Assembly: GCA_026414765.1 (NCBI GenBank)
Contig: JAOAIJ010000015.1
Span: 62,001 to 126,000, forward strand
DNA from: Clostridia bacterium
GTDB lineage: Bacteria > Bacillota > Clostridia > Acetivibrionales > DSM-27016
DNA length: 64,000 nucleotides
Direction: 5' to 3'
This document shows positions 21,395 through 26,172 of the stretch, in pieces. How positions within the stretch are numbered: position 1 is the stretch's first letter; each line of letters opens with the position of its first letter. Both the position numbers and the translations under genes were made by a program. Under the pieces are notes generated by a model that saw only the letters and a program-made list of their open reading frames with translations, was not told the DNA's origin and made no database searches.

Positions 21395-21428
21395 AAAATG
21401 TCCGGTATTTTTTACCGGACATTTTTTT
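21395..21428 (+). terminator. Terminator after gap
   Basis: AAAATGTCCGGTA and TACCGGACATTTT form a strong stem with a short T loop, followed by a T run. Confidence 0.9.
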
Positions 21429-21494
21429 ATCCGGATATTCATGCCATTAAAGTGGCAGACCCAACTTTGTTCCATAGTTCTATAAATTTTTGAG

Positions 21495-23111
21495 GTGATT
21501 CTTATTAGGGTTGTTCTGGTACTCATTCTATCCGTTTTGTTAACCGGTTTTAGCACATACAAACAGGGTATTTCCGTTGATTTCACTACGGTTCGTACTG
21601 CACAGGCCGCGGAATCAGTAGATATTTTGATTAGTGCCATAGGTGACTGTGTTTTGGGAAATGATTACAGGGCTTCGTATCAGGGCTCTTTTGATGGTGT
21701 GTTTGCTAAAAATAGAGGTGACTACAGCTACTTCTTCAGAAGCGTATACAGTGTTTTATCCAAGGATGATCTGACAATAGCAAATTTGGAAACGCCGCTT
21801 ACATTGCAAAAAGAAAGAATTGCAAAAAATGATGTAAAAGATAGTTTTTGGTTTAAAGGCAGCCCCCATTATGTAAATATTTTAAAACAAGGCAGTATAG
21901 AGGCAGTAAACCTGGCAAACAATCATACTTTTGACTATAAGGAGATAGGGTACAGCGAGACCCGGAAGTACCTGGGCAAAGGGGGAATAGGGTATTTCGG
22001 CTATTCACATAGCTATATAAAAACCGTAAAAGGAATAAAAGTCGGAATGGTAGGATTCAACCAGCTTGGCAGTATTGAGCAAGGGGTTGACTATGGTGCT
22101 CTGAAAAAAAATATTGAGGAAACTATCAGGAATGTGAAAAAAGAAAGCAATCTTGTAATTGCAAGTTTCCACTGGGGTAAGGAAAATAGTTATGATATTG
22201 ATGAGACTCAAAGGGAATTAGCCCATTTTACAGTCGATTGCGGTGCTGATATGGTCATAGGGCATCATCCGCATGTCGTACAGGCAATTGAAAAATATAA
22301 AAATCGGTACATTGCGTTCAGCCTTGGCAATTTTTGTTTTGGAGGAAATTCTTCTCCCGAAGATTTTGATACATACATACTTCAGCAGAAATTCACTTTT
22401 AATAAGGAAAAAGAGATAAAAAATATTTCAGGGCCAATTGTCATTCCGTGTTCTATCTCTTCTGTATCAGGGGTTAATGATTACAGACCTGTATTGCTAA
22501 AAGGTCCGGATGCAGAAAGAATACTGGAAAAGATACAAAAAGGCTCAAATATTGATATTTTTCCTACAGAGAGAAAAAAAGAGTTTGTGATCCTGAATTC
22601 GTTCATAAAGGATATTGTTATTGATTTGGCGTATGCAAAACAAGATAACTTTACCGGAGAGAAAATATATAAGGATAATACTGCATATCTGAGGAGAGGT
22701 ACGGCTGAGAAATTAAGAAAAGCGAGTGAGCTGCTCCGTGAAAAGGGTTATTTGATAAAAGTCTGGGATGCATACAGACCGCCGTCTTGCCAGAATTTTT
22801 TATGGAGTAAGGCAGTAAACAAAAGTTTTTTTGCTGCACCGGAGAAAGGGTCAAATCATTCCAGGGGGGCATCTGTCGATATTACGATAACTGATATGAA
22901 GGGTAATGAGGTTGATATGCCCAGTAAATTTGACGAAATGTCTGGGAAAGCTACCAGGGGTTACAAATATGCAACAGACAAGCAAAGAGAAAACTCCGTG
23001 ATGCTTGAAAACATCATGGAAAAGTGCGGATTTATCCCCCTTTACCTCGAGTGGTGGCATTTTGATGATTCAGATTGCAGACAGTATGATTTGGTGGATA
23101 GTGTCAGGTGA
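21495..23111 (+). CDS. Secreted CapA-like metallophosphatase fused to a VanX-type D-Ala-D-Ala dipeptidase
   Basis: The 538-residue protein has an N-terminal signal or anchor helix. A CapA/PgsA-like domain (about residues 45-300) follows, with ISAIGDCVLGNDYR, NLANNHTFDY, SFHWG and GHHPHVVQ. The C-terminal domain (about 365-535) matches the M15D dipeptidase VanX: VWDAYRPP, SNHSRGASVDIT with zinc-binding His and Asp, and EWWHF with catalytic Glu and His. All VanX active-site residues are present. A wall-modifying role is likely, but the combination is unusual. Start uncertain: the GTG at 21495 overlaps the best ribosome binding site (GAGGTGA, 21492-21498), so a rare start a few codons later is possible. 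Confidence 0.83.
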   Translation: MILIRVVLVLILSVLLTGFSTYKQGISVDFTTVRTAQAAESVDILISAIGDCVLGNDYRASYQGSFDGVFAKNRGDYSYFFRSVYSVLSKDDLTIANLETPLTLQKERIAKNDVKDSFWFKGSPHYVNILKQGSIEAVNLANNHTFDYKEIGYSETRKYLGKGGIGYFGYSHSYIKTVKGIKVGMVGFNQLGSIEQGVDYGALKKNIEETIRNVKKESNLVIASFHWGKENSYDIDETQRELAHFTVDCGADMVIGHHPHVVQAIEKYKNRYIAFSLGNFCFGGNSSPEDFDTYILQQKFTFNKEKEIKNISGPIVIPCSISSVSGVNDYRPVLLKGPDAERILEKIQKGSNIDIFPTERKKEFVILNSFIKDIVIDLAYAKQDNFTGEKIYKDNTAYLRRGTAEKLRKASELLREKGYLIKVWDAYRPPSCQNFLWSKAVNKSFFAAPEKGSNHSRGASVDITITDMKGNEVDMPSKFDEMSGKATRGYKYATDKQRENSVMLENIMEKCGFIPLYLEWWHFDDSDCRQYDLVDSVR

Positions 23112-23136: not shown

Positions 23137-23511
23137 GTGTTTCATAGTTTATACAAACGTTTTTATTTGTATGGTGAGTCTGAATTGCCAAATATCATAA
23201 ACTGTTTTCTTATAGCTTTTGGGGTCATAGTGGGAGCAAGTGCTTTTGCAGGTATAGCAGCTCTTATAAATGACCAGCCTCCAGTAAAAACTATGACCAA
23301 CCTGGCAGCATCTATAAAGATCTGGGCTGTAGCAGTGGCTCTGGGCGGGACTTTCTCTTCCTTTGAAATAATTGATAAAAGCCTTTTCAGAGGTGAAATA
23401 AAATCCATGATGAAGCAGGCAATATATGTGCTGATGGCTATCCTGGGAGCAAATGCAGGCTGCAGATTTATTAAGCTGATGCAAAGGTGTGGGGAGATAT
23501 GGGGGAAATAG
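23137..23511 (+). CDS. ytrH: Sporulation protein YtrH
   Basis: The 124-residue protein has about three membrane segments and the YtrH pattern. It shows INCFLIAFGVIVGASAFAGI, then KTMTNLAASIKIWAVAVALGGTF, a short basic loop, and an AILGANAGCRFI segment. YtrH is made in the mother cell under sigma E in Bacillus and is needed for normal spores. The GTG at 23137 is the reported start; a later TTG cannot be excluded. ytrI overlaps its end by 13 bases, as in relatives where the two are paired. Confidence 0.85.
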   Translation: MFHSLYKRFYLYGESELPNIINCFLIAFGVIVGASAFAGIAALINDQPPVKTMTNLAASIKIWAVAVALGGTFSSFEIIDKSLFRGEIKSMMKQAIYVLMAILGANAGCRFIKLMQRCGEIWGK

Positions 23512-23969
23512 ACCGCAGAGCTTCTAAGGCTTTATTTTGCTTTGTTGCGGGAATACTGACGGGGGTAGTCGCGGGTGCTGCACTTGTAATCACACTGATA
23601 GGTTATAGAGTAGACAGCTACCATGAGAGAATCCGGAGTCTGGAAATTGTAATTTATGAAAAAGAGGTTTCTCTGAAAAAACTCAATGAGTCTGTAAATA
23701 AAAGAAAATACTTGCTTAAGGAAATAGAAATCATTCTCCTGTCTGAAGAAGGTGACGAAATTGATTTAAGGTTTCTCGAGAAGACAATAAAAGAGAAATA
23801 TAGTAATTTGTTAGGTAAGGAAGTAAGAAGTATTGATATGGAAATGGTTACTGAAGTCATTGACCGGAGGCTTTTCCGGATAAATGAAAAACTCTTCAAG
23901 CTTAAAGTTAACAGGATACTCCTTTCTGAAGAGATGAAAATATGGGCACAGGTAGAAGTGTTGGAGTAA
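23499..23969 (+). CDS. ytrI: YtrI-like sporulation membrane protein
   Basis: The 156-residue protein has one N-terminal membrane helix (about residues 10-35). A coiled-coil-like charged region follows (VDSYHERIRSLEIVIYEKEVSLKKLN), then a C-terminal domain with SIDMEMVTEVIDRRLFRINE. The layout and pairing with ytrH fit the YtrI family; the sequence itself is only weakly conserved. The ATG at 23499 is chosen because GGGGAG lies just upstream; an earlier GTG at 23487 is less well placed. Likely a mother-cell membrane protein in spore formation (by context). Confidence 0.7.
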   Translation: MGEIDRRASKALFCFVAGILTGVVAGAALVITLIGYRVDSYHERIRSLEIVIYEKEVSLKKLNESVNKRKYLLKEIEIILLSEEGDEIDLRFLEKTIKEKYSNLLGKEVRSIDMEMVTEVIDRRLFRINEKLFKLKVNRILLSEEMKIWAQVEVLE

Positions 23970-24018: not shown

Positions 24019-24225
24019 TAAGGAAGAAAAAGATGTAAAATGTAAACGGTTAAAGTGGTGTTAATTTTGGCTTTAGTACATAATCTTTCTATTCATTGAA
24101 AAAAATAACCGTATCAATATTTAGGTGCTTCCATGCATTTGTTGTGCACCATTAACCAGACATAAATGCTTTGCATGCTTAATCAAAATACTACATTATT
24201 AATTAAATACAGGAGAGTGAACAAT

Positions 24226-26172
24226 ATGAGTATGATGAACAAAAAGACGATTGAAGATATCGACGTAAAAGGCAAAAAAGTCATAGTAAGGGTAGATTTT
24301 AACGTTCCACTGGATGAAAACAGAAATATTACTGATGATAAAAGAATAGTTGGTGCATTGCCGACTATCAAATACCTTGTTGACAACGGAGCTAAAACCA
24401 TATTGGTTTCCCATCTAGGAAGACCCAAAAACGGTTTTGAAGATAAATATAGTATGAAGCCTACAGCAGTAAGATTAAGCGAATTACTTGGCAAAGAAGT
24501 TATCATGGCTAAAGACGTTATTGGAGAGGATGCGAAAGCAAAAGCGGCTGCTCTTGAATCAGGCGAAGTACTTATGCTTGAAAATGTAAGGTTCCATAAG
24601 GAAGAAGAAAAGAATGATGCGGCTTTTGCAAAAGAGCTTGCTTCGTTAGCCGAGATTTTCGTAAATGATGCATTTGGTACTGCTCACAGGGCGCATGCTT
24701 CAACTGCAGGCCTGGCAGATTATCTACCGGCAGTATGCGGATTTTTGATTCAGAAAGAACTTCAATTTATGGGAAAAGCTCTTGCAAATCCTGCAAGACC
24801 TTTTGTTGCAATACTTGGTGGAGCTAAGGTTTCCGACAAAATTGCAGTAATAGAAAATCTTATAGATAAAGTTGATACTCTTATAATCGGTGGTGGTATG
24901 GCTTACACTTTCCTTAAGGCAAAGGGGTATAGGATAGGTAACTCAATTTGTGAAAATGATAAATTGGATCTCGCTAAGAGCCTGATGGAAAAGGCTGAGA
25001 AGAAGGGTGTCAATTTGATGCTTCCTATCGGAAGTATTGTTGGTAAAGAGTTTAAAAATGATACAGAGCATAAATATGTTCCTTCCGATGATATGCCGGA
25101 CGAATGGATGGGTATGGATATCGGATCACTGACAATCGAGAAGTTTTCCAAAGAAATAAAGAAGGCTCAGACAATAGTTTGGAACGGACCTATGGGAGTA
25201 TTTGAATTCCCTAACTTTGCGACAGGAACAAAGGAGGTAGCAAGAGCGGTTGCAGAATCAGGTGCTATATCCATAGTTGGTGGCGGAGATTCAGCTGCTG
25301 CTGTTGAACAGTTAGGTTATGCAGATAAGATAACACATATATCGACAGGGGGTGGAGCTTCACTGGAGTTCCTTGAAGGTAAGGAATTGCCAGGTATAGC
25401 GGTATTGATGGATAAAAACAACAGAAAGAAAATAGCTGCAGGAAACTGGAAAATGAACAAAACAGTAAAAGAAGCTGTTGAGTTTGTAGAAGCTTTGAAA
25501 GCAAGAGTTGCAGATGCTGATGCGGAAGTAGTTGTAGGTGTTCCTGCTGTTTGCATACCTGATGTTAAGAAAGCTGTACAAGAGTCAAACATAAAGGTAG
25601 CTGCTCAGAACATGCACTGGGAAGAAAAAGGAGCATTTACCGGAGAAATATCCGGCCCGATGCTTGCTGAACTCGGTGTTGATTATGTAATAATCGGGCA
25701 CTCTGAAAGAAGGCAGTATTTCGGAGAAACAGATGAAACCGTGAATAAAAGGGCTTTAGCTGTATTCAAATACGGAATGACACCTATAGTTTGTGTTGGG
25801 GAATCACTTGCACAGAGAGAACAGGGAGTAACTGCGGACCTTGTAAGATACCAGGTTAAGATTGCTTTGCAAGGAATGAGTGCTGAACAGGTTAAGAATG
25901 TTGTTATAGCTTATGAACCAATCTGGGCTATAGGAACAGGTAAAACTGCTACAAATGAGCAGGCAAATGAAGTTTGTGCGATAATCAGGGAAACTGTAAA
26001 AGGGTTGTATGGTGCAGAAGTTTCTGATGCAACAAGAATTCAGTATGGTGGAAGTGTAACTGCTGCTAATGCAGGAGAACTCTTTAATATGTCCGATATA
26101 GACGGTGGTCTTGTTGGCGGAGCAAGCTTAAAGCTTGATGATTTTGAGAAGATAGCTAAATATAATAAATAA
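24226..26172 (+). CDS. pgk-tpiA: Phosphoglycerate kinase - triosephosphate isomerase fusion
   Basis: One uninterrupted frame encodes 648 residues. Residues 1 to about 395 are phosphoglycerate kinase: [28 protein letters not shown], the hinge with [12 protein letters not shown], and the C-terminal [13 protein letters not shown]. From about residue 403 it is triosephosphate isomerase: [10 protein letters not shown], the electrophile His in IGHSERRQ, catalytic Glu in [12 protein letters not shown], and YGGSVTAAN. Both active sites look intact. The join is direct ([16 protein letters not shown]), with no stop and no clear ribosome binding site for a separate isomerase. Such fusions are known in Thermotoga and some clostridia. 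The ATG at 24226 follows AGGAGAG. Confidence 0.96.

Follow-up and report, generated by a model that had tools for sequence, protein, structure and literature searches.

What would a cell do with a CapA-type metallo-domain joined to a VanX-type D-Ala-D-Ala dipeptidase in one protein? The question is raised by a gene in a 64,000-nucleotide stretch of DNA from a Clostridia bacterium (GCA_026414765.1, contig JAOAIJ010000015.1, positions 62,001 to 126,000), which was analysed as a whole and is called the window here. Proteins of the CapA/PgsA family are widespread, with no settled catalytic role. VanX-type enzymes cleave the free D-Ala-D-Ala dipeptide.

One polypeptide with conserved active-site residues in both domains

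The gene (window 21495..23111, + strand) is a single uninterrupted reading frame of 538 codons with an annotated GTG start. Both parts score above their Pfam gathering cut-offs: PGA_cap (PF09587) matches aa 46-282 (E 1.2e-56, 192.5 bits against a cut-off of 27), and Peptidase_M15 (PF01427) matches aa 361-527 (E 1.8e-29, 103.4 bits against 27). The protein is thus a true two-domain protein, as the first-pass annotation of this DNA had it. The calcineurin-like CapA domain spans aa 41-350 (21615..22544, +) and the VanX/DdpX-type M15 domain aa 360-538 (22572..23108, +). An AlphaFold2 model built from an 80-row alignment reached a mean pLDDT of 92.8 and a pTM of 0.81, with the N-terminal tether alone modelled poorly. 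Compared with solved structures in VIA-align 2, the model matched MslH (Z 35.1, 2.3 A, 288 aa), VanX 1r44 (Z 24.5, 2.2 A, 176 aa) and YmdB (Z 18.9, 3.4 A, 225 aa). By sequence, too, the CapA part matches MslH among solved structures and the M15 part matches VanX (E 4e-17).

The VanX catalytic residues, described earlier as complete, are indeed intact. They comprise R428 in the RPP motif (22776..22778, +), the equivalent of the VanX RPx arginine; the zinc ligands H455-x6-D462 (22857..22880, +); and E519-W-W-H522 (23049..23060, +), which holds the catalytic Glu and the third zinc ligand. In the alignment, R428, S453, H455, D462, E519 and H522 are invariant in 34/34 M15 sequences. The domain shares its fold, zinc ligands, catalytic Glu and RPx arginine with DdpX, VanX and PcgL (M15D, PF01427), and differs in being joined to CapA and in its predicted export; unlike VanX, it also has a shorter stretch ahead of the H-x6-D motif. 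It lies nearer DdpX (NCBIfam PRK10178, 158.6 bits) than VanX (NF033115, 82.3 bits) while falling below both equivalog cut-offs, just under for DdpX (176) and well under for VanX (320). No vancomycin-resistance genes were found among the adjacent genes examined.

The fusion begins with a predicted hydrophobic signal or anchor (aa 1-17; 21495..21545, +), with a 15-residue mean hydropathy of 3.21 at residue 1 and no lipobox in the N-terminus. The tether that follows, up to about aa 40, has low model confidence and carries an AQA|A motif (residues 36-38). The first three residues are doubtful because the annotated GTG sits within the Shine-Dalgarno-like GAGGTGAT (window 21492-21506), and an in-frame ATT at 21504 (+), a possible alternative non-standard start, is better spaced. 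Since a hydrophobic N-terminal stretch is present in 13/13 fusions, both domain orders included, and a hydrophobic N-terminus or lipobox in nearly all single-domain relatives, the fusion is likely to be exported and tethered to the membrane. Export had been proposed as a departure from cytoplasmic VanX. The export itself is supported, but the departure is not special to this protein, as most clostridial M15 relatives, both single-domain and otherwise fused, also have hydrophobic or lipoprotein N-termini. Exported VanX-type enzymes appear to be common among these relatives. PcgL, too, is periplasmic. This Salmonella protein is an established D-Ala-D-Ala dipeptidase (PMC7933661).

Distribution, domain order and wall-gene neighbours

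A domain search recovered the same pairing in 12 other genomes, 10 with the same domain order and 2 with the reverse; an assembly artefact or a chance pairing is thereby ruled out. The 10 proteins with CapA ahead of M15 are 44-51% identical to the window protein and come from the same taxonomic order (G034, G036, G037, G038, G039, G041), the same class (G306, G421) and the same phylum (G470, G739). M15 comes first and CapA second in Desulfosporosinus sp. I2 (L006) and in G495 (L080/L106). To arrive at opposite arrangements takes two or more fusions, or else a single fusion plus a permutation. Such proteins are rare, being found in at least 7 of 58 genomes in the taxonomic order and in a few (lower bounds) in samples of 391 genomes from the class and 398 from the phylum. 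In the CapA tree, 10 of 11 same-order fusions fall in one clade (support 100/98), and sub-groups of this clade reappear in the M15 tree, as expected of a long-lived fusion. The G739 protein and the two reversed proteins fall outside the clade on poorly supported branches. None of the papers covered by a literature search combined "CapA family protein" with "peptidase M15", which is weak evidence given the scope of the search.

In 7 genomes a second MurE lies beside the fusion, and a partial gene is found in that place at a contig end in G421. These loci often also hold a FemX-like transferase, a SpoVB-like flippase, a PBP5-like D,D-carboxypeptidase and an ATP-grasp protein. Three of these genes (MurE, FemX-like and ATP-grasp) are found again at the fusion locus of G306, which belongs to a different taxonomic order, and in G739 the gene immediately upstream of the fusion encodes alanine racemase. 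A PDB search found no relative of the ATP-grasp protein, which we take to resemble D-aspartate ligase. The neighbouring ligase scores as MurE, above the TIGR01085 cut-off, and reads EDPG where 4/4 housekeeping copies examined have DNPR, the motif of DAP-type MurE (PMC3829189). Copies with EDPG clustered with the FemX-like, ATP-grasp and fusion genes include L098:7152-8663 and L102:8278-9807. It is possible that these are alternative stem-peptide loci. In G495 the fusion has, as judged by eye, flavodoxin-like and aldo/keto-reductase-like neighbours instead of wall genes, and the window fusion lies outside any wall cluster, in a genome whose single MurE is elsewhere.

Both domains have other partners as well. 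In L123 (by Pfam) and L124-L125 (by eye), exported M15 domains are joined to a YkuD L,D-transpeptidase, and in L126 to SH3 and M14 carboxypeptidase domains. These clostridial wall enzymes resemble the window protein in joining an exported M15 domain to a domain that acts on wall peptides, and differ in the identity of that partner. CapA is combined with three S-layer homology (SLH) repeats, a cell-surface anchor, in L113:1441-3144, and the CapA proteins of L114-L119 share an unnamed C-terminal region of about 150 residues.

A candidate two-headed wall enzyme and its alternatives

On balance, we favour the view that the fusion is a membrane-tethered, outward-facing enzyme with two heads for the processing of peptidoglycan stem peptides. 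The two domains with their conserved residues and predicted folds, the occurrence of both domain orders, the wall genes near relatives, the YkuD, M14 and SLH fusions, and the hydrophobic N-termini all point this way; the position of the window gene outside a wall cluster, the M15 scores below the equivalog cut-offs and the non-wall neighbours in G495 point against it. The C-terminal zinc domain would hydrolyse D-Ala-D-Ala set free as the wall is built or turned over, and the cell could recover the resulting D-Ala. The N-terminal CapA domain would serve as a metal-dependent hydrolase, probably with two metals, on a candidate wall-linked substrate in the same place, and tethering both domains would keep linked steps together at the membrane. 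Export, catalysis and the D-Ala-D-Ala substrate are what we infer for the fusion. The earlier proposal that it acts on wall peptides gains from the fusion partners and neighbours, but, because VanX-type enzymes use the free dipeptide, it is limited to D-Ala-D-Ala that has been released, barring a wider pocket.

The fusion and the wall-gene neighbourhoods tie the CapA family to cell-wall peptides and so hint at what CapA does. With CapA repeatedly joined, in either order, to a type of enzyme whose substrate is well understood, the search for what CapA acts on narrows to wall peptides that end in D-Ala and lie outside the membrane. In some Clostridia, the linked second-MurE locus points to an alternative stem peptide.

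A simpler but unlikely explanation is that the protein only scavenges, with the M15 domain using free extracellular D-Ala-D-Ala as DdpX and PcgL do and CapA either carried along or serving to bind the wall, with no linked catalytic step. The M15 domain is indeed closest to DdpX, and CapA looks like a mobile exported module because it is also fused to SLH anchors and to the unnamed C-terminal region. However, the metal-binding and His/Asp residues of CapA are kept in essentially all 57 sequences, which would not be expected of a dead binding module, and fusion in either order suggests that the two domains are linked in function.

If CapA is catalytic, its conserved residues bear on what it does. 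D51, E99, N143, H144, D147, H226 and H260 are invariant in 57/57 CapA sequences, and H258 is present in 56/57. We know of no biochemistry for the CapA subgroup to which the fusion belongs. MslH is a lasso-peptide epimerase with a single metal, in contrast to two-metal relatives such as YmdB, and four of its residues, D11, H88, D91 and H295, are proposed to be catalytic (PMC10406935). In the alignment, E99 corresponds to MslH E44, H144/D147 to H88/D91, H226 to H259 and H260 to H295; the equivalence of D51 and D11 is taken from the structural-alignment offset. The fusion retains both MslH dyads, H88/D91 and H295/D11, as H144/D147 and H260/D51. The calcium ligands E44, N87 and H259 are kept as E99, N143 and H226, whereas the fourth, H261, is Gly228 in 57/57 sequences; conversely, the fusion retains H258, the usual metallophosphoesterase histidine, where MslH has Gly293. 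With the dyad residues kept and the ordinary GxHPH motif present, a two-metal hydrolase of calcineurin fold is the more likely reading, and the ligand pattern fits a calcineurin-like di-metal phosphoesterase.

A bolder version of the stem-peptide model, which we regard as quite unlikely, is that CapA itself acts on the stem peptide, cutting or inverting near the D-Ala end, and hands D-Ala-D-Ala to the attached dipeptidase; in relatives this would take place within a second-stem-peptide locus with its non-DNPR MurE, FemX-like protein and ATP-grasp ligase. If this were true, the widespread CapA/PgsA family would gain a wall-peptide substrate.

We give little credence to the alternative that CapA is an MslH-like peptide epimerase that inverts wall peptides at their C-terminal residue, either ahead of the M15 cut or following it. 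Among solved folds, MslH matches best by a wide margin, well ahead of YmdB in Z score, and all four of its proposed catalytic residues are kept. But MslH is the sole PGA_cap-type sequence match in the PDB search, so its top rank reflects family membership, not function. The loss of H261 and the presence of H258 also argue against an epimerase, as does an MslH equivalog score of 39 against a cut-off of 700. MslH is a RiPP enzyme, unlike the fusion with its predicted export.

Sporulation, poly-gamma-glutamate and the surrounding genes

Upstream of the fusion, a strong intrinsic terminator (21395..21425, +) with a 13-bp stem and a U run (-18.1 kcal/mol, z -5.4 by folding) follows the GAPDH gene gapA and separates the fusion from it. 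The terminator rule of the promoter scanner missed this hairpin, which folding shows clearly. Downstream, the fusion ends 25 nt before ytrH (PF14034; 23137..23511, +), with which it is possibly co-transcribed, and ytrH is overlapped by a ytrI-like gene (23487..23969, +). The same group of glycolysis genes that includes GAPDH holds phosphoglycerate kinase and triosephosphate isomerase in one 668-aa reading frame (24166-26172, +).

The position just before ytrH/ytrI, correctly noted in the first-pass annotation, had been taken as a link to sporulation. On that reading the fusion gene would share a sigma-E-driven transcript with ytrH/ytrI, and its product would act on cortex peptides as a sporulation-specific enzyme. 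A B. subtilis screen lists ytrH/ytrI under cortex and coat/cortex synthesis and places ytrH in the sigma-E regulon (PMC4703394), and a SpoVB-like neighbour occurs in related genomes. The adjacency is nevertheless confined to one genome. At all 17 other ytrH loci in the taxonomic order, neither a CapA nor an M15 gene adjoins ytrH, and ytrH was not detectable in the order's other fusion genomes. Sigma-E-like sites upstream of the fusion were no better than in shuffled sequence (0.52 of shuffles as good), and the same was true of a sigma-70 scan. Membership in a conserved ytrH operon is rejected on the 17 loci, the sporulation link is weakened, and a cortex-specific role is improbable.

A part in poly-gamma-glutamate synthesis or release (PgsBCA/CapBCA) can be set aside almost entirely: the fusion belongs to the PGA_cap family and adjoins a Mur-ligase-family gene in several genomes, but that ligase is a MurE by score, and PgsC/CapC was not found in the window genome, nor in 11/12 fusion genomes, by a search that detected the B. 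subtilis control, which makes such synthesis unlikely. The fusion shares the domain, an N-terminal anchor and conserved metal-site motifs with CapA/PgsA, and is set apart from those systems by its C-terminal peptidase as well as by the missing PgsC.

The window genome encodes two more CapA homologues without M15 (44% and 35% identical). A CapA-only paralogue (L107:9488-10564, in G000:C21) lies between gpsA and a lipid kinase gene, near spoIVA, and a phospho-sugar mutase gene is found near both this paralogue and its distant relative in L108.
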